Assembly: GCA_001630475.1 (NCBI GenBank)
Contig: KV419429.1
Location: forward strand, 334,388 to 362,555
Reading direction: 5' to 3'
Length of the DNA: 28,168 bases
Source: Sistotremastrum niveocremeum HHB9708
Lineage: Eukaryota; Basidiomycota; Agaricomycetes; Sistotremastrales; Sistotremastraceae
Below, piece by piece: positions 397 through 14,666 of the stretch (position 1 is its first letter; every line of letters starts with the position of its first letter). The translations under genes were made by a program, and so were the position numbers. The notes below the pieces were generated by a model. That model was not told the DNA's origin. It did no database searches and saw only the letters and a list, made by a program, of their open reading frames with translations.

Positions 397-949
397 ATGT
401 CTGACGCCGGAGACGAAATTCAAGTCGATGCCCCAGTTGAGGAGGTAGAAGTTGCCCAAGAGGCACCAAAAGGAAAGCTCTCAGTCGAGGATGCTCTCCA
501 GGTATGATTCTCACCAAATCGTGGTCTTTATATTTGATTTAATTTTAACTCTATTTTAGCAAGTCTTGAAAAACGCGCTTGTTCATGACGGACTCGCTCG
601 CGGTCTTCGCGAATGTGCCAAGGCTCTCGACAGACGTCAAGCACATTTGTGTGTACTCGTCGAGACTTGCACTGAAGCCGAGTACATTAAGCTCATTGAG
701 GCCCTTTGTGCTGAGCACAAAATCAACCTCATCAAAGTGCGTCATACGTTATCTTTTCTATAGCATCGCTTTATCGATCGTCCTTAGGTTGCTGATGCCA
801 AGGTCCTTGGTACTTGGGCAGGTCTTTGCAAGATCGATCGCGAAGGCAATCCCCGTAAGGTTGTTGGATGCTCTTGTGTCGTCGTCAAGGAGTACGGTGT
901 TGAGAGCGAGGGCCTGCACGTCCTTGTCGATTACTTCAAGAACCGTTGA
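397..949 (+). CDS. RPS12: 40S ribosomal protein S12 (eS12)
   Basis: Structural protein of the small cytosolic ribosomal subunit, in the L7Ae/L30e fold family. Three exons: 397-501, 560-736 and 788-949, with phase-0 GT-AG introns of 58 and 51 nt, give 147 aa, the usual eS12 length. The N-terminus is acidic (start [13 protein letters not shown]). The conserved core follows: [16 protein letters not shown] at about residues 56-71, then HKINLIKV, then [20 protein letters not shown] and the C-terminal [10 protein letters not shown]. The ATG at 397 lies directly after a probable 5' UTR intron acceptor. Every junction restores the family sequence without gaps. As a ribosomal protein gene it is expected to be highly expressed. 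Confidence 0.95.
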
Positions 950-2469
950 TTGTACCTTTGAGCAGCTTTGCTAATGACATAGTGTACCAAACCGCTGCAT
1001 TGGATCCATGGACGGCAACTTCAAACACCTTGTAATCAGCTTAACTCATGCACCTCATCTTTCTGTCCGCAATTCCGTGTCCGCATTACGGGATTGCCCA
1101 CAGCCACTGGTGTGCCGAACCAACGCCTGTTTAACGTTTGGTCCAAACAGATTCCGCTGGCGCTGGTGTTGAACTTCGAAAAGGAAAAATAACATGACAT
1201 CGGCTCTCTGCAAGTGATAAGCGTATCGAACCTCGTTCATCGTGCGATCCTCCGAGAATGACTGATTGCTTGATTCGTCGTGAAGTACATTCCGGTTCTC
1301 TCAACGCCGAGGACCGATGAGTTTTTCTTTTCAACACGGTCTCGAAATCACGGACACATCAACCAGATCGATCACTTCTCAACAAAACACTGTCGAAACA
1401 TGATTTGGCAGAAGGTCACTCTCAACTCATAGCACATGGACGGAAAGCCGTGAAGCTCTTCCATTCCACTGCATGCGTCCAAGTATCCATCGTAGCGCTA
1501 TTCATTTTTTCGCCCTGGTCCTACGCATCTACATAGCAACTTGCTGATCCCTGCATCACATGAAGGCTCTCCAACTCCTCCACAGGGATCCATTTTTGTT
1601 AATATCTTAATAATCAACGATAAGCTGGAGCTGAAGTTGTGTTTTCTTTTCTATGACCTACCGGCCACGGATCTGAGATATATTAAGTTTACTTTCAGCT
1701 TCGTTTTTGTCAGGCTTAAGCTACTCACAGTGCTCTCCCGATTCAAATTCTTGAGCCGTCACCGGGATTCCCATGACTTCTTTGGCGACAAGGATAAAGA
1801 TGAAGAGTGTGAGACTGGCGACTGAGACAAATCGCATCGATAAGTTGACTTCGGCGAGAGAAGCGCAACGAATTCTTATGTGTTGAGTGCCGCTACCTCT
1901 CCCGCCCGCCAGCTACTTCCGAATGTTATTTATTGATTTCCAGACCATGCGCCGACTCTGCTTTAGGCTCCATGTACGCCCAGGCGGCCCATGCAAGCGC
2001 CAGCGCCCAGCATATTTATCTGTCACGCACCTGAGAGGAATATCCGTGTGATAGCAACTGAGCCCAAAGTGCAAGTTGCTGTTATTCGCTGTCGTGAGAT
2101 ATACCGATAACACGCCGTCAAAATCAATCATTGTTGAGTTAACGATAAAACTCAGCTCGACACAGTTTGATTGTTGTTGGCTATATGTAACGCTTCACGA
2201 TGAGAAAGGTGATCGACATACGAGCAATTTTCTAGGCGAGGCTAGTTACAAATATGCTATGGAACAAAGGCAGGCTATTGATATAGGGAGCGTAAATATA
2301 CAAAGGTTACAAAGTAGCAACAAGAGGGCTAATGAGTCGAAGGGGGTCCGGGAGCGCAGGAATCATCAACAATCAGAATATAGGATACGTATTGAAAGTA
2401 TTAGGGATGCCGTGTGAGAAAGAAGACCAGATATTCAATCCCGGGCCGTTCAACAAGCTACTTAGAACT
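950..2469. other. Intergenic region without a supported gene
   Basis: This 1.5-kb stretch lies between the RPS12 stop and the stop of the first small secreted protein gene, so it holds the 3' ends of two convergent genes. Open frames such as those near 1541-1825 and 2076-2417 show no recognisable motif, no clear splice pattern and no family resemblance. I found no RNA gene or repeat. Confidence 0.5.
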
Positions 2470-2842
2470 TCAGCGGAGAGAGCCCACAACATCACAGGAT
2501 GGGCCTCCTGCTTGACCACACTAGCAAGTTGCAACGGATAAAACGCAAAAAATTAGTATATGTCTAAGAATCGAATTGTCCACAGAACGGACCTTTCTTT
2601 TGGAAAGTAAAATAGCTTGAGCGAGTTCGCAACCCTCTTCACCTGGTCCGCCGCACGCCGGGCATTGCTGTACATATATCAGTTATAATATTTCAAGCAT
2701 GTCATTGGATTGAAACTTACGTTGCAGTCTTCCACATAGGAAGCCATGAGGGTTGGTGCAGCGGATGCGGTTAGAGCAAGGAACAAGGCAAGGATTCCAA
2801 GCTGAGGAAGGCGATTAAAAAAGACAGGCGCAGAGCAAACAT
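2470..2842 (-). pseudogene. Cysteine-rich small secreted protein, paralog A (signal peptide frame broken)
   Basis: This is a diverged tandem copy of the gene at 3616-4133. Exons 2721-2842, 2593-2667 and 2470-2520 are separated by introns of 53 nt (GTAAGT donor, TACAG acceptor) and 72 nt (GTCCGT donor, CTAG acceptor). Exon 1 holds a signal peptide (start MFALRLSFLIAFLS, then ILALFLALTASAAPT) but the two halves are in different frames; its 122 nt cannot join exon 2 in phase. Exon 2 carries the module PACGGPGEEGCELAQ and exon 3 carries CGQAGGPSCD, both CX7C. The mature part would have six cysteines. It may be a pseudogene, a sequencing error, or a gene with an unseen splice form. Function is unknown; small secreted cysteine-rich proteins of fungi include candidate effectors, but nothing here proves that. 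Confidence 0.55.
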
Positions 2843-3615
2843 TGTAGATATTAGTCGAGACTCAAGAAAGAAAGCTTTAAAGTCAGAGTCGTAGGGGGGG
2901 GGAGGTTCTGTGAAGGACAGAAAGTATGCTGATGCTGATTTCGATTCATGGGTCACCCGCACCCTTCATCCTCTTATGAATTTTTCATCCTTTCTTTTTT
3001 GATGCTTGAAATTTTGTTGAAAATAACACCGCGTGGAGACCAAGGTGAAAACTCTGGCGCTTGTCATACATCATGTTGTTTACAGCGCGTTTCATCGTGA
3101 GAAATGATTGGCAGCAGCAGCGCCGGATTGGCAGACTTTCACCTTACTAACAAGACGACACAGCTATCGAGTCACTCGCTCGACAGTCAATGAATTCAGG
3201 GCAAGACTGGAAAACGTGGCAGATGCCATGGTCAACCTGAGAAACTAACTTGCCGAGAATACTCGCATGTAGGTCGGGACTCGGACTCGGGACTTCTCTC
3301 AATATTTGTAGAGTCTCGCACTCATTATGCACCGACTTCTCAGAGTGTCATTATATGAAATTTCAATGAGGTGGATGAACTACAAAATAATACATGAACC
3401 TAATGATAGCATAGGACAAAAAGGGAGGGAAAAGACTATCGATACATGTAGCGGGAGTGCGTGCGAAGAATGCGTGCTAGAATAAATGGGATGAAGTAAG
3501 ATAGCTTATGAGCGGAAGAGAGTCCAAATTATTAGTTGGGAGATAATATAGAAGATATTGGAGCATTAGCGAATATTATGGCAATTCGGGTAGAATACGA
3601 GTGCCAGTGCAGCGC
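2843..3615. other. Intergenic region between the two secreted-protein paralogs
   Basis: This contains the upstream region of paralog A and the 3' flank of paralog B. On the minus strand at about 2971-2980 there is a CATAAGAG sequence in the position that the TATAAAA box occupies in paralog B (about 130-135 nt before the ATG). This suggests the promoter was duplicated together with the gene and has since drifted. A minus-strand G8-like run (C8 on the other strand) lies near 2894-2902. I see no gene. Confidence 0.45.
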
Positions 3616-4133
3616 TTAGCAGCCCGGGGTCGTGGGGAATTGAGCACAGAGATCACAAGAAGGTCCACCAGCCTGACCACACGGTACGGGTGCCTGAGAA
3701 GAGACTGAATAATCAACCCGCGGCAATATATGGAGAGAACTCACTCTTTCTTCAAGGACCAATGGAGCTTGAGCGACATCGCATGACATCTCCCCGGGAC
3801 CTCCACATTCGGGTCTAGGGATTTCCTAGATATCGTGAGTATCGTCATTAATTTCTATTTACACAGATCAGGAATTAAGCGTACGAGATTGAGATTGAGA
3901 TCGAGATCGAGTTGAGCGACGTCGCAAGACATTTCTCTAGGTCCTCCACACGCGGGTGTTTGCTGAGAATATAATACATTAGTGATCATTTCATTTAGGG
4001 GATATCGTGCAGGACTTACACGGCGGAGATGAACTTCGGAGACGAGGGAAGTGGGTGCAGCAGAGGCGTTAAGAGCTTGCATGAGAGCGATGATAAGGAA
4101 GGGGGTGAGGAAGGAAAGACGGATAGCGGCCAT
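3616..4133 (-). CDS. Cysteine-rich small secreted protein, paralog B (three CX7C modules)
   Basis: The four-exon model (4020-4133, 3885-3962, 3745-3825, 3616-3693) has phase-0 introns of 57, 59 and 51 nt and encodes 116 aa. Residues 1-26 are a signal peptide (hydrophobic FLTPFLIIALMQAL, then NASAA before a likely cleavage site), so the product should be secreted. Each later exon carries one module with two cysteines seven residues apart: CGGPREMSC in exon 2, CGGPGEMSC in exon 3 and CGQAGGPSC in exon 4. The mature protein has eight cysteines, an even number that suits disulfides. Exons 2 and 3 share the string MSCDVAQ and look duplicated. I chose the ATG at 4133 because it starts the signal peptide and follows an ACA context. 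I recognise no named family. Possible roles include host or microbe interaction or cell-surface activity, all inference. Confidence 0.75.
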
Positions 4134-5086: not shown

Positions 5087-6803
5087 CTAGTCATTCTTCA
5101 CAACCTTCCAAACTCTCACAACCCCATCATCTCCACAACTCGCCAAAACACCTTCCATCTCTCCCGTTGTCGTATGGGGAGCCCAAGCAACGGCATTCAG
5201 ATCATATATCCCATGCGCATCTTCGCGCGAGGCTATTAATTCTACGAGGGGTACGTGGGATGTAGGATTCGTTAGAGCCTTGAGAAGCGAGTTAGTAAAT
5301 TTGAAGGAGGGAAGGAGAAGAGGGGGGAAGGAGGGGAAATACGTACTTTTATAGACCAGATGTTTATTCGGTCATCGGAGCCTGTACTCGCTATCCATCC
5401 TGCATCTTCATATTCTTCTTCTCCTCCCTCTACCTTTTCCCCATCCCCATCGACCTCCATCTTTTCTCCGTCCCCTTTCCTCTCATCCTTCTTCTGCGGG
5501 GAAGAAGAAGAACCGGCAGCGAAAGAAGGTGCATGTCCCCATGAAACACTATAAACACTCCTCTCATGCCCTTTCAAAACCTTCACACATTCCCATCTCT
5601 GATCACTGCTATTCACATGCCCCAACACTCCCTTTTTAGGAGCGTCGGTACGTGCCCAGATGCGGAGGGATTTATCGTCTGATGCTGAGGCGAGGTATCG
5701 TCTTCGTAGAGGACTTGTTTGGGATTTTGAATTTGGAGAAGCAGAGGACGTGGATGAGGAAGGGGAGGGAAGAGGTTCCCATGCGAGAGACCAGACGGTC
5801 GATGTATGTCCTTCGAGCGTTGCAAAGTCGTACCAATCATCTTGTGGATCATCGATATACAATTTGATCGTATCGTCGTACGATCCTGACGCAAGGATCT
5901 ATATCAATCATCGGTTGGTCATCCTTGTCTGACTGATTCGACACGAAAAAGGTGAAAAGCGAGAACAAAACGGAACGAAAACGAGGCGGAAGAAAAGATG
6001 AAGAAGAGAAGAAGAGAAAGGGAGGGGATGGGGAGAGAGGAAGTGAAGTGAGACGTACATCTTCCCCAGGATACCAAGCCAAACATTTAACATCCTGACT
6101 ATGCACACCCATAATAACACTAACAGTCTCCCACTCCCCATCGCCCACATTCTCCCATATCCACACACTCTTATCTCTCGAACACGTCGCTACTAATCCT
6201 CCAACATTTCCATAAGGCGAAGGTGATGTAGAGGAAGAGGAGGTGGAGAATGCGACGGATTTGATCTCGGAATCTGGGCCTTCGAGTGTTGTTGTTAATT
6301 CCCATTCGCCGGATACGCCGAGTTCTTTATTTCCACCGACATCGTCCCCAGCGGAGGAAGAGGAAGAAGCGTCGGCGTTGGAAGGTGAACGTTCCCAGAG
6401 GCCTACTGTAGAGTCGAAGGAAGCACTAGCCAGCGTCCTCCCATCATTGGTCCATGCTATCGATCGAACAGTTTTCGAATGCCCAGTTGCTATGGTTGAC
6501 ACATGTCGGAAATTATATTCGCTTTCTTTATCTTTCCGCTCTGAACCAGTCGATGGTGAAGATGAGGGGGTGGATGGAGGAGAGTATGCGTATAGTCGGA
6601 TCGATTTATCGGATGAGCAGGATGCGAGTAATGGATGGTCGGGATGGGGATTCCATGAGATTGACCAGACTTTATCTTCGTGTCCTACATTACCCCATTA
6701 TCAATTATTAATACTAATTGAGGATATATGGGTGAGGGGTACCTGTGAGCTCTGCGATTTGTTCGAGGCGGTATGGATATTTTATCTCGGGTGAGGATGG
6801 CAT
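5087..6803 (-). CDS. CIA1: Cytosolic iron-sulfur assembly protein Cia1 (WD40 beta-propeller)
   Basis: Cia1 (Ciao1 in animals) is the WD40 scaffold of the CIA targeting complex, which hands Fe-S clusters to cytosolic and nuclear proteins. Four exons (6743-6803, 6059-6684, 5347-5898, 5087-5278) encode 476 aa; introns are 58, 160 and 68 nt. Propeller blades are visible in order: LTGHEDKVWSISWNP, then ATGHSKTVRSIAWTNDGRT with DSTVGLWE, then RDKSVWIWE, GVHSQDVKCLAWYPGED, GHTSTVWSLAWE with DDKSLRIWA, LKGHERSVYSVSWG with GSDDRINIWSIK, and a last blade ending CGDDGVVRVWKVVKND. It is longer than usual Cia1 (about 330-400 aa) because of Ser/Asp/Glu-rich insertions between blades, mainly around residues 110-130 and in exon 3. 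The last intron ends in AAG. It is divergent from MRPL16. Confidence 0.9.
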
Positions 6804-6875: not shown

Positions 6876-7829
6876 ATGCTCTCACTTCTCCGACCGTCCT
6901 TTCCCTCACTCTCATCACTCTCATCATCCCTTCCCCGTCTCCCCGCCTTCCTCTCCTCATCGACTCCATCAACATCCTCACCTGCCCAGAGACTCACCGG
7001 AATCCGGCACCGCTCCCAACTAGCCCCCCGCTCCATAAAATACATAAAACGCCACAAAGGCATAATCCCCATTCCCACAGGTGGCTCCATAAAAGGGACA
7101 ACACTCTCCTTCGGCCAATACGGAATTCGAATAAAAGGCAATGGAGCGCGGTTGAGTGCGAAACAGTTGGGTGTGGCGGAGGAGGTTATTAAGAGGAAGA
7201 TTAAGAGTGTTAAGGGGGCGAAGGTTTGGATGAGGGTGTTTCCTGATGTTCCTGTTTGTGTTAAGGTATGTTGGATTGGAGTTTTGGATTGGGTGGGTGA
7301 TTGATTGATTGGTGGGTAGGGCAATGAAACAAGAATGGGGAAAGGAAAAGGCGCATTCGAGTTCTGGGCAACGCGGTACGTTCCTTTGTTCTTTCGCTAT
7401 TTGCAAATGTCTGATATGCGAACGGTAGAGTACCTACAGGCCGCGTTCTATTCGAAATAGGCGGTGTGGATATCCGTGAAGAAATAGCTCGAGACGGTAC
7501 GTTCCTTCTCCTCACTCTCTTCCCACCCGTCGTTTCCCTCCTCCCCCTTTACCCATCCATAATCATCAATCATCCAAACTACCGTGCCTCCGTTCCCCGC
7601 TTTCCACAAAACATACACTGCTCGGAACTGACCTGTAAATACAGCTCTCCGTCAAGCATCCGCTAAACTCCCAGTGACAACATCATTCATCACACGTTCA
7701 TCTACACCCCGCCTAGGCGGATTGGATATAGCAGAAGGAGACGAAGTATTAATCAAAGGGAAGAAATGCGTTTATGGTGCTGACTCTTCGAGTGTGTCGG
7801 CAACGCAATCGAGCGGTGGGGGGTTATAG
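6876..7829 (+). CDS. MRPL16: Mitochondrial large-subunit ribosomal protein uL16m
   Basis: Component of the mitochondrial 54S subunit, homologous to bacterial L16. Exons 6876-7265, 7320-7375, 7429-7496 and 7645-7829 (introns 54, 53 and 148 nt) encode 232 aa. The first 50 residues are rich in Ser, Leu, Pro and Arg without acidic residues, as expected of a mitochondrial presequence (MLSLLRPSFPSLSS). The L16 core follows: KGIIPIPTGGSIKGTTLSFG, then YGIRIKGNGARLSAKQL, then [20 protein letters not shown], then VPTGRVLFEIGG and ALRQASAKLPVTTSFI. The tail after about residue 190 is not conserved in what I know of the family, and the last codons (SSGGGL) look weak, so the 3' end could be spliced differently. 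Confidence 0.9.
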
Positions 7830-9485: not shown

Positions 9486-12400
9486 TTATGAAAGTCTGAC
9501 ACGTCGATTTGGCCTCTCGGGCCCGACCTCTGTGGCCGTATGAGGCCTTTTTCGACTCCTAGGCAACACGGCCTTTGCTTGGATTGGAGGCAACACTGGC
9601 TTTGCGGGTCTGTATTGAGTTGGAATACCCATTCGTCGCTCCTCGTCATCAGTGATCTCCATGGCATGCAGCATCTCAATGGGAATAGGAGCGGCATTTG
9701 AAGCTGCCAAACCGTCTGTCAAATAACCAGGGTGTTTGTCTTCGAGGTGCTGCTTTGCATTATATTTCCAGATGGCGGTCACAAACTTTCCTTGTCGGTG
9801 AGTACATCCGATGATAGAGCACAAAATGGGGACATTGGTGGAGGGGGTGTTGTCGGTCGATATTAGTGCTCGCTGATACATGAACTTGTAGAAATGTTGA
9901 CAGTCTGATTTTGGCTGGGGATTTGCTCCGGCGGTCAGGTAAAGTCGACTGCATTCGGGCAGTCCCGATCTTCCACAGAAACCACATGGATCTGGTGTCT
10001 CAATCTAGCACTTAATGAGCAAAAGCTTGGTGAATTTGTCAATTTTTTCTGCCAACCTGATCCCCGGACAGAGCTTCCACCACTCCACGCATTCGCTTGA
10101 GGATATGCTTTCCAACATGTGATCGAGCTTTCCCTATGGGTAAAATCTCGTGGCACTGATGGCATTGAAAGCTCTTAACGCTGATCGAATCCGCGTTGAT
10201 TCGAACAAGATGCTCGGATCCTTCTTCGGAGACTAAAGCTGGTTCACCTGAAAAGGAGGACAAATGTGCAGTATGTCAATTTTCTTGCCGGAGAAACACG
10301 TATTGGAAGCTCTTACCAAGGAGGGTGTCTCGATAAGGGAACGATTCGCTTGTCTGGAATTGCGGCAGTTGAGGTATGCCTTTTTCTTCTTTCACAATAT
10401 CCCACAGTTGATCCCGCATTAATCGCGTCTGCTCATCTGCTATCTCCCATACAATCTGGACAGCGTTCATATCTGGAAGCTCCGAAGATTCGAGCCGTCC
10501 GTCCAACGGTTTGATGTTTGGATCAATGAGTTCGCAGAGATGGCTCGGCACCTTTACGACGATAGTCTTGCGGGCTGATTTTCCTGTGGGCAAAGCTTTG
10601 CCTTGGCTGGGCACCATCTGAAGGTAAGCACCCGTTGAGATCCAACTCTGAGCTTCTCCTGATGACACTCGTCGCATGTCGAGGATCTGGCCATGTAATT
10701 TGATACCGGCAGCGGAATGCGGCAAATTGAGTATGTCCACCTGATTGGGTCGTGATCCTTTCTCGTCGATAGAGATGCATTTGAGAATAGCAAGGCTGAG
10801 TGTATCTTCGCATCGTATGAGAGTGATGAAGAGATCGCCGACCATGAATGCATTATCATTTGTTACTCCTGCATTATTGATATCTCGGGGTTTAGCGTTG
10901 GCACTGTAGTTGCGCACCCGCAATAGACGTTCATGGGCCTTTCGAGAGAAGTCGGGCGTAATAAGTCGACATAGAGTGGCCTTGTAATTTTTCGTCCTTG
11001 GTATTCAATCCATGCTGATGGTTTCTCTGAGATATTTGAAGGGGCGGGAAGTTCTTCAGGCGGCGGAAGAAGATCCTCGAGTTCAACGTCAATGTCGTTG
11101 GAAGGGAGGGAAGATTCAGAGGAATCAATATTTCCGGTGATTGCGAATGCACCGTCATTGTGCGGGATGTGCAGCTCTTGACCAATAGATGGCTGCTCTT
11201 CAGTCGGGTTGTCTTCCGTGCCTGAAGGACGGTCTATGGGGGGATAAGACTCCTGCGAGATGTTGTGCCCCGAGGTTGAAGCCTCTGGCTGCGAAGCCTC
11301 AATGGGCTCTACAGATCGATCTAGATCAACTGAGACACCGGGATATTTTCCATCGCCTGCGGGTCTGAGCATGTCAAGAGATGAGTTGGAAGAGAATAAG
11401 TTCTGATAATCTTCGGTGATGCCTATGCTGCTCAGAATTTTGACGGCCTCGTCTCGACCTGACTTCCAAGCGAATTCCAGATCCATACTGTCTGCAACCA
11501 CATTGCCGATCCACGACTCTGGGTTCAGGTGATCCGTATGTTCAGTTCTCTTGATCTTCAGTCTTCGGTGTCCGCTCGAGAGCTCAGGATTCCGAGTGTA
11601 GATTGCGTCTAAATCGACCGCCGCTCCGAGCCTATCAACCAGCTGTTTGAAAGTAAAATTTGGATTATGACCTCCTTGCATCCGCAAAATTCCAAATAGC
11701 AGCTCAAGGCGATCATCACCTGTCCAGAACAGATGGAAGGGCTGGCTGCCATCCATATCCTGCTGCTTTGCAATGCAGAATATCACGTTCTTGATTGTAG
11801 TCTGCAGATCCCCGTATAGTTGATGGGGGAGGAAGTTTATTCCGTGACGTCGAAACAGAGAGAAGGCAAGGTGAGCAGATTTTGCCAAAGATGTTATTTG
11901 CTGAGTCAGATTCCATTCCGGACAGATGTATGCGTCCACAAAGGAGCCAAAAGTTTCTGAGATGACGGATATCGCTTGTAACTCCTGCAGCTGGGATGGA
12001 TTCAGGTCGTCTTGAGCGAGGCTCAACACCGAAGCGATGGCTCTGATGAATTCGATGGCTCTTGGTACATCTTGTGAGTCTTCTGGGCGGAGGAGCATAT
12101 CGATTTGAGTGAATGAGAGATCGGGGTTTCGCGAAAGATGGGATCGGATGAGTGATTGATTCACAACCGTATTTCCTATTTGAATTCCGTCATCGGTACG
12201 AAGTACACGGGCCACCCCTGTTACATAGGTCGATTAGATCTCAATCAAGGGAAAGAACATGGACCTCACTCTTAATCTCATGTTTCCAATCAATGTCGGC
12301 TGTGATGTTGTTCTTGCCGACTTGTTTATTTAACCCCTCCAGTCGGCTGACGTATTTGAAGAGAGGATCCGAAGGCTGCAAGTCTGATTTGACAAAGCAA

Positions 12401-14666
12401 TTATAGATCATTTGCCTCCGGCCTGCATCGCCATCTGAAGCAAACGACCATATGGGACCGAATTGTGTGGCAGCATGCTGATCCCATGCTTCAAACACTT
12501 GTTGTAGTAAATTACCGGAGCTAGTAGGATTTTCCTGTTTGCAAGTTGGTGAAACAAGAAGCGGAAAGGCTCCTCGAATCAACTTCCCAAATGATCCGAC
12601 TGCGATAACCGACGCCTCTCGTCCATAGTGCACAATTTTTTCCTCGAGGGCCGTAGCAATGCTCTGTGCATTCTCATACGAGGTCAAGCGAACGGGGATA
12701 TTCGATGAATGCTCTCGACAGAGCCCTCCCACACTGTCAGAATGTGGGAAGTAGCATGCCCTCTCTTCGATGGATACCTCATCCCAGAAGATGGAACAGC
12801 CAGTTCGGAATGGCCTAGAAGGATCGAGACGTAAAGCAGGGACCTTTGAAAGGAGTGTAGACTGGATATTGAAAGAGATGTCGGAAGTAAGGACTTTTCC
12901 AGTACTGGGCATGAGATTGGTGAAAATTTTGGACCTGCGAAGTGTTCGGAGTGATGGCAAGGAAAATTCTTGATTGAAAGCGTAGAGCAGATTACGACCG
13001 CCAAGACGATAACACAACCCAGCGATGTCGTAGTCTCTGTCCTCGTATCCTTTTGCACTGTATGACTTCAGGTTCTGGAACGTGTCCTGAATTTTATTGA
13101 CGATGGCTGATACGCTAGACCCAATTCTCAAGGCGGATGAAATGAGTTGCTTCAATCGGGGAACATTTTCCGTGGCTGCAGCCATCATAAACCTTTGGTT
13201 GTCAGCGCCCCGTCGACCAGCTACGGTGAGCTTACGACTCATGTTCAAGCCCTGATAAAACGACACATATTAGATGGTTTAACTCCAATCACCACGAGTA
13301 AACAAACACTGACTTTCATTCGCAGACCTTCCATTTGTTGACTCCGGTCAATAGCAATCCTGATCAAGTGGGACTGGCTCAAAAATCCGATGCGAACATG
13401 TGACGAAAGTGTCCAGTCGCCGGCAATACTGTGCAATCTTGCAACAACATTTGGCAGAGCCTCACATTCTCGGCACACATCTGAACCTGCCCGGCATACA
13501 TTTGTGCACAACTTCGAACGAATTCTGACAGGCAAACCCGCTGCGCTGAGACTACAGAAATGGAACCCTACGCTAGTAGGCGAAGCATTGTCAATCCTAT
13601 GGAACGGAAAATCCGACCAGAAGTGATCTCCCGGCCATGAGAAGTCGCTGCCTCGGCAGTTATCTAGAGCCGGGATGGACGGGTGGATATTTTCCTCCAA
13701 GATATCGGATTCTGTATCTAGACTAGTGGAACCAGATATAGAGATTAAGATTGGGACGTTCTCTCATGGTGAAAAATTCACGTACTCAACATCGAAATTT
13801 GGGTCATATGTATGCGGCGTAAGAGTCTCAAACAAAGGCCTTGGTGCTGTGTTCTCGGCGTGTGGAATTCCACTTTGAGAGTTGACGGATTGAGATGGAA
13901 TTGGAGGATATGGATGGGAAGGAGGAACCGAGACAGTGGCTGAGGCACTTCCCTGAGAAGCAGGAAAGGCCGCTTCCCGAGCCGCTTTCGTCTGTGCGAG
14001 AGCTTCTTGCTCCTCTCGTCGAGGAATGGAAGCGACACATGCTTTGAGGCTGCGCATATGAGCGACGAGAGGATGAGTGTTTCCGGCGTTGGATGAGCCA
14101 GTGTTCTTCCAAGCCTGACACTTAGGACACTGGACTTCCCATTTTCCGTCAGAGTTCTGTCTCCAAGCTAATTTTTCTGTACCAAATACTGGTGTTTTGG
14201 GAGATAATATGTTAGATATATCATTAAGCACGCCATGAGGCGTTGAGGAGGTCGGAAATAAGACTCTAGAGGCTCTATTGACGGGAGTAGAATATTGACC
14301 AGTAAATCGAGGCAAGGAACCCAGAAAGCTGGTGTTCCCGGCGTGTGACTGACGAGGGGTCTCTTGTTCCCGCAAAGGGAAGGGCGTTCCAAGAACGGTA
14401 GGGGACCCGGGCAATGAGATAAAAGAAGTCTCGGATGACTCTAATGGATGGCGAAATGGGTTGAATGAATGGTCAGGCCTGTCGACGTCAGGACCCTGCG
14501 CGCTGAAGAAAGCCTCATGGCTGGTGAGAGAAGCTTCGCCGAGCGTGGAAGTGTGGCCTGAGAAGGACGAAGGGGTTAGTGCGGTTAGCGAGAGATCAGG
14601 AAGGGACTCGTCTAGAAGAGATGTGAACGAATCTGGGCCAGTAAAGACCCAATCTTCGTCTGTCAT
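9486..14666 (-). pseudogene. Large zinc-finger, transposase-like protein with one frameshift
   Basis: Exons 13786-14666, 13314-13722, 12270-13251, 10317-12217, 10057-10247 and 9486-10004 (introns 52-69 nt) would give about 1627 aa, except that exon 4 is one nucleotide out of phase. Exon 1 is Ser/Thr/Pro-rich and has a zinc-binding pattern near residue 180 (CPKCQAWKNTG, then HPLVAHMRSLKAC). Exon 2 has a Cys cluster (CTNVCRAGSDVCREC). Exon 3 has two acidic motifs, FWDEVSIEERACY (about 587) and SFASDGDAGRRQMIY (about 703). Exon 4 has DDRLELLFGILRMQGGHNP (about 929). That order resembles RNase H-like transposases of the P-element/THAP9 type; the match is my inference. A long acidic linker follows, then C-terminal Cys/His motifs PCGFCGRSG and IWKYNAKQHLEDKHP. 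I recall similar multicopy proteins in mushroom genomes. It may be an immobile, domesticated or decaying element. Confidence 0.65.

Follow-up and report, generated by a model that had tools for sequence, protein, structure and literature searches.

The stretch of DNA analysed here (the window) spans 28,168 nucleotides of contig KV419429.1 of the basidiomycete Sistotremastrum niveocremeum HHB9708 and carries a small group of related minus-strand genes whose common element is a core of two cysteines separated by seven residues (CX7C) [Table 1]. The first-pass annotation had described two such genes in tandem; the modules of both (A and B) are indeed present, and a third related gene (C), which it had missed, has to be added to them. 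Among the neighbouring features, the ribosomal eS12 gene is matched by solved eS12 chains (up to E 1.9e-54), the ORF with the L16 match (E 1.6e-17) is perhaps a gene for mitochondrial L16, and the WD40-like ORFs may encode a protein resembling the CIA1-type cytosolic iron-sulfur assembly protein. The large ORF run may be a decayed transposon, and one of the four ORFs scanned in it resembles a TNP-like RNase H at a score below the threshold (E 0.0025). A scan for bacterial-type promoters and terminators remained at chance level.

Table 1. Genes of the CX7C family and neighbouring features in the window (positions counted from its first letter; exons as modelled).
Feature	Position	Strand	Content
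Gene A	4133-3616	-	intact; four exons, 116 residues, three CX7C modules
Gene A exon 1	4020..4133	-	hydrophobic leader, probably a signal peptide, with the first part of the propeptide; closes with ...HLRR
Gene A exon 2	3885..3962	-	module QTPA-CGGPREMSC-D; phase-0 intron on each side
Gene A exon 3	3745..3825	-	module EIPRPE-CGGPGEMSC-D ... LEER
Gene A exon 4	3616..3693	-	module APVP-CGQAGGPSC-DLCAQFPTTPGC-stop
Gene B	2842-2470	-	two modules: CGGPGEEGC, CGQAGGPSC
Gene B exon 1	2721..2842	-	related leader exon, not in the module frame; stop 23 codons after ATG
Gene B exon 2	2593..2667	-	module QCPA-CGGPGEEGC-E ... LSKRK
Gene B exon 3	2470..2520	-	module CGQAGGPSC-DVVGSLR-stop
Gene C	1837-1498	-	one core, MDP-CGGVGEPSC-D
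Gene C exon 1	1729..1837	-	hydrophobic leader MRFVSVASLTLFIFILVAKEVMG...
Gene C exon 2	1662..1672	-	11 nt; least certain element of the gene C model
Gene C exon 3	1498..1605	-	ILTKMDP-CGGVGEPSC-DAGISKLLCRCVGPGRKNE-stop
eS12 gene	397-949	+	spliced ribosomal protein gene (by eye)
WD40-like ORFs	about 5272-6502	-	
L16-like ORF	6876-7304	+	Ribosomal_L16 match
Large ORF run	9486-14666	-	

Gene models in the window

Exon models were based on splice consensus, reading frame and agreement among 11 paralogs. In its spliced model, gene A is organised as had been described, with a leader followed by one CX7C module per phase-0 exon (CGGPREMSC, CGGPGEMSC and CGQAGGPSC); its introns of 57, 59 and 51 nt are all GT-AG and phase 0, and its leader reaches a maximum 11-residue Kyte-Doolittle value of 2.49. 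The corresponding value for the leader of gene C is 2.77, and the two introns of gene C (56 and 56 nt, GT-AG) are of phases 1 and 0. When the protein of gene A was searched against Pfam, no family scored over its gathering threshold, and the matches below the cut-off were to PssL (E 0.038) and Acanthaporin (E 0.22).

The claim that A and B both encode intact proteins stands for A and fails for B, in which the frame opened by the ATG closes within the leader exon; for the frame that takes ASAAPT into the modules, no ATG was found within positions 2900-2700. The module CGGPGEEGCE of gene B departs from the S and D kept in the other cores, its second donor (GTCCGT) is weak, and its last exon starts at the cysteine itself. 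As it stands, gene B is broken, mis-assembled or begun at another start site, and the out-of-frame leader, the changed module, the weak donor and the exon starting at the cysteine together indicate that it is most likely a copy in decay or an artefact of assembly.

A and B had also been proposed to stem from the duplication of a whole unit including its promoter. In BLASTN comparisons the two genes share only 62 + 31 nt, both inside modules, and the alignments do not support a gene-plus-promoter duplication that would join A and B in particular. Gene B resembles C87_1, a family gene on another contig, in the upstream region, over the first part of exon 1 and across its two modules, and gene A resembles the same gene from exon 1 through to the 3' side. 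TATA-like boxes, located by eye, lie 134-141 nt upstream of the ATG in A, B and C87_1, that of B reading CATAAG.

The family across the genome and the conservation of its core

Our DNA pattern searches of the fungus's own genome (34.7 Mb) yielded 23 CX7C cores, which we attribute to 13 genes spread over six contigs: C36, the contig of the window (A, B, C and the genes 316k and 262k), C87 (three genes), C11 (two) and C21, C53 and C67 (one each). Ten family genes thus lie outside the window, and the two cores of gene B are counted among the 23. The pattern CGGPx[DE]xxC gave 11 matches, 10 of which were assigned to the family, and the pattern CGQAGGPxC gave five, all in the family; as the reversed control of either pattern gave none, the occurrence of these modules in the genome is not a matter of chance. 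A further core pattern gave 15 matches, with three dropped and eight additional cores gained, against two in its reversed control; over all genome pattern searches the reversed patterns returned 0, 0, 0, 2 and 0 matches. The matches dropped from the family were one on C25, whose open frame (KTCGGPEEISCL) has no D after the cysteine, two on C11, which are copies of one sequence, and one on C29, in a low-complexity stretch whose open frame ends shortly after; a match on C2 (one of five in a further pattern search) was also left out. Diverged members were possibly missed because the patterns fix parts of the core. Protein searches of the genome with A and with C36_316k returned no extra gene.

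The core was also looked for in viral contigs and, with a stop codon demanded after the D, in contigs of bacterial and archaeal genomes, with no match in either set, both of which consist of sequences other than fungal genomes and say little here. A PDB search with the C53 precursor gave a single match at E 1.2, which was judged to be chance. A domain scan that took in 13 of the 55 listed flanking ORFs, at six loci and with all C21 ORFs left out, revealed no domain common to different family loci; the domains over the cut-off were PRISE and ankyrin (both C11) and Amidase (C36:262k), with MAD below it.

The core mostly reads C-G-[GQA]-[PVA]-G-[EG]-[PM]-S-C-D, its commonest form being xP-CGG[PVA]GEPSCD. 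In the alignment of the 23 cores, both cysteines are invariant (23/23) and G6, G9, S12 and D14 are kept in at least 90%. Four types of core occur with identical peptides (CGGPGEPSC, CGGVGEPSC and CGGPGEMSC in four sequences each, CGQAGGPSC in five), and the DNA is different in all 17. Cores of the same type differ per pair at a mean of 5.2-5.3 of the nine third positions; the expectation is 5.3-6.0 if synonymous codons are chosen freely and at uniform frequencies, for 17 sequences that were themselves chosen for peptide identity. Identical peptides with nearly saturated third positions indicate that the DNA of the core copies diverged long ago and that their protein sequence is constrained. 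The nearest paralog of gene A is C87_1, and dN is far below dS in both of the short stretches compared between them, namely A exon 3 and C87_1 exon 4 (27 codons; dN 0.122, dS 1.459) and A exon 4 and C87_1 exon 5 (23 codons, the first two codons of A exon 4 being omitted; dN 0.115, dS 0.645). The comparison of exon 2 of both genes (dN 1.708, dS 1.474) was excluded for being two residues out of register.

Precursor layout and basic residues ahead of the core

Precursor layout was tabulated for the 20 cores of the 11 complete models, a set that omits gene B (out of frame) and C36:262k (L036), the core of which is among the 23 and not the 20 because its middle exons are ambiguous. The arrangement of one module per phase-0 exon, noted beforehand in the window, mostly extends to the whole family: 17 of the 20 cores stand at the start of an exon that follows a phase-0 intron, and the three exceptions have a phase 1 intron (second core of C11_1), a shared exon (fourth core of C36_316k) or no intron (C53). 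Since most cores sit in a phase-0 exon of their own, cores could be gained or lost in frame. The number of cores per gene ranges from one to four; eight of the 11 complete precursors have one or two, and the remaining three have at least three (A with three, C87_1 and C36_316k with four each). An early hydrophobic stretch is present in all 11, with maximum 11-residue Kyte-Doolittle values of 1.65-2.89, a measure of hydropathy only.

Basic residues are in excess before the core. Lys or Arg occurs within five residues of the first cysteine in 18 of 20 cores, against 126 of 420 (30%) other 5-mers, within three residues in 12 of 20 (98 of 470 other 3-mers) and within eight in 20 of 20 (138 of 348 other 8-mers), where the background k-mers come from the same precursors beyond residue 22 and the cores, being related, are not independent. 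KR or RR stands directly before the core segment in only six of the 20; the other cores mostly have a single Arg (ER, TR, AR, PR, QR and others), two having Lys only, and for 10 of the 20 the intron directly follows an Arg. Pro immediately precedes the first cysteine in 13 cores, eight of which read exactly R-x-P-C, and this single dipeptide mostly comes after a lone Arg. At the other end, the protein terminates at SCD in six of the 11 complete precursors; the stop after the core of C87_2 is reached only via a modelled splice, which makes that end less certain. The minimal precursor, C53, is intronless and 40 residues long, consisting of a leader, AVIVPR (cut placed by eye) and SPCGGVGEPSCD-stop, and the most pheromone-like one, C36_316k, contains SLKR-EPCGAAGEPSCD-KR-TPCGGAGEPSCD, in which KR stands on either side of one core. 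The C21 member (L034:3856-4140) differs from the other complete models in the six-cysteine tail after its core (WCMMDPDEMCCPGWCVTNPDAACCQD); with 8 cysteines in total, its precursor resembles a small cysteine-rich protein.

We consider it probable (roughly 60%) that the family consists of secreted precursors from which a kexin-type cut would free disulfide-loop peptides. Such a precursor would begin with a leader that acts as signal peptide, continue in most cases with a short propeptide and carry between one and four CX7C cores. In the secretory pathway, a kexin-type protease would cleave at the basic residue ahead of the core, and wherever D is followed by a basic pair or closes the protein, both ends of the peptide would be set. 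The xP dipeptide may then be trimmed by a STE13-like dipeptidyl aminopeptidase, the two cysteines would close a nine-residue disulfide loop, and the freed peptide would have an extracellular role, either signalling to its own species or affecting other organisms. Taken together, the excess of basic residues, the precursors that stop at SCD, the single-core gene C and the ten genes elsewhere argue for the release of peptides and against a modular protein.

The products might nevertheless be whole small cysteine-rich secreted proteins in which tandem disulfide-loop modules serve as effectors, wall proteins or metal binders and nothing is released. The multi-module precursors A and C87_1 fit this picture, since the cut sites before some of their internal cores are weak (EIPRPE, ERPEPA, AVEKPE), there is no obvious cut site downstream of the cores with DVAQ... 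spacers, and their tails bear extra cysteines (DLCAQFPTTPGC, DLCGQFPNTAGC), as does the C21 precursor. It remains a doubtful explanation for the family, as the C53 precursor offers little beyond leader and one core, over half of the complete precursors end with the core, and the core is kept while leaders and propeptides differ between clusters (by eye).

Candidate processing genes, receptors and known peptide systems

In the genome of the fungus, kexin-type P_proprotein domains were matched at two loci and a STE13-type DPPIV_N domain at one, and the machinery for the proposed processing is therefore likely to be there. The genome is also rich in UstYa (DUF3328), with at least 63 exon-level matches (E up to 0.1) on C33, C52, C37, C43 and other contigs; some of these matches lie close together and possibly mark cyclic-peptide pathways. 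Dikaritins (ustiloxin-type RiPPs) share with our family a leader and kexin-cut repeats, and precursors of the dikaritin type, matured by kexin cleavage followed by cyclisation through UstY-type (DUF3328) proteins, would find their enzymes in such a genome; the closest listed UstYa on C36 (275.9-277.7k) is about 14 kb from C36:262k, one of the five family genes of that contig. We regard this explanation as highly improbable, however, for the core has two cysteines and no Tyr in all 23 cores, a disulfide accounts more simply for two invariant cysteines, and UstYa is absent, among the matches listed, from the five other family contigs (C11, C21, C53, C67 and C87).

Typical antimicrobial peptides are cationic. 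The present core, in contrast, bears one or two carboxylates and has no basic residue in 22 of 23 cases, the exception being CGGPREMSC of gene A, and its near-fixed sequence suggests a specific partner. Antimicrobial or defence peptides, processed in the same way and targeted at other microbes, are hence a distinctly improbable account of the family, even though several paralogs form small clusters (C36, C87, C11) and, in Coprinopsis cinerea, knock-outs of six keps (genes for KEX2-processed repeat proteins, KEPs) had no apparent phenotype in axenic culture, for which the authors prefer a role in biotic interaction (excerpts of PMC9769878). A near-fixed loop, mostly without basic residues, that recurs in many genes would rather point to a specific partner, and on that ground a signal or a biotic-interaction peptide is favoured over a general toxin.

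The yeast alpha-factor is a peptide that is cut out of a secreted precursor and released. To our knowledge, fungi of the mushroom group do not mate via alpha-factor-like peptides. In the genome studied here, STE3-type pheromone receptors gave 30 exon-level matches at about nine loci on C13 and C35, and the STE2-type domain (PF02116) gave 0, in a search run without a positive control; together with the small introns, this receptor pattern fits a basidiomycete host. The family nonetheless resembles the ascomycete alpha-pheromone precursors in its presumed secretion, in a short core whose two cysteines enclose Gly and Pro, and in its putative kexin sites, as far as these are described in the portion of PMC6339444 used here; an xP dipeptide, moreover, often precedes the family core. 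It differs from them in having seven residues between the cysteines, where the printed RFCHLPGQGCSK has six (PMC6339444), in a core without Trp, in the low number of cores in most complete precursors, and in a basidiomycete host without the STE2-type match. The same portion of that paper (Le Marquer) reports basidiomycete KEPs built like alpha-pheromones, including a Trichosporon oleaginosus peptide, QSWGGCGGRGTPCW, in which CGGRGTPC resembles the family's CGGPGEPSC minus one residue; compared by the printed 14-mer only, this KEP differs in its Trp flanking the loop, its repeated copies and its STE13 signatures. Conceivably, basidiomycetes keep an alpha-pheromone-like CX7C signalling beside their lipopeptide pheromones, with a non-STE2 receptor and with growth by phase-0 exon gain and gene duplication, a tentative idea that we hold to be rather unlikely at present.

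The KEP rule of Le Marquer (2019), as given in the part of PMC6339444 cited above, calls for an N-terminal signal peptide and for three or more similar repeats with KR, RR or KK between them. Applied to our models, three or more repeats are found in only three of the 11 complete precursors, and most cores are not set apart by dibasic pairs as the rule has it, C36_316k coming nearest. With too few repeats in eight of 11 and few dibasic pairs, the family would work like a KEP, yet gene by gene it mostly falls outside the KEP definition. The KEPs of Agaricomycetes and other fungi are secreted precursors from which short peptides are freed by cleavage at basic sites, in fungi with kexin and STE13 homologs, and the proposed processing of our family is similar (excerpts of PMC9769878 and PMC7329392). 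Vogt and colleagues (PMC9769878) detected peptides derived from KEPs in mushrooms, some of them probably trimmed by STE13, and Umemura (PMC7329392) reports 1680 KEPs from 317 surveyed basidiomycete strains. Our family differs from these KEPs in that its genes mostly carry one or two cores and are poor in dibasic pairs, and neither "Cysteine" nor "CGG" appears at the start of a word in the main texts of the two papers. The core strings CGGPGE (at a word start) and GEPSCD were absent from the texts of the papers searched, a set that covered texts other than supplementary tables, which could list the family; the matches to CGGPG were unrelated by title and abstract.

Secreted peptide signals are little explored in mushroom-forming fungi, and a survey rule that needs at least three repeats between basic pairs would miss most of the family described here. 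The family offers a candidate peptide of ~12 residues, likely with a disulfide loop, together with candidate genes for its processing. Cores that mostly occupy phase-0 exons of their own would also illustrate neatly how a set of peptides could expand with the reading frame unharmed.
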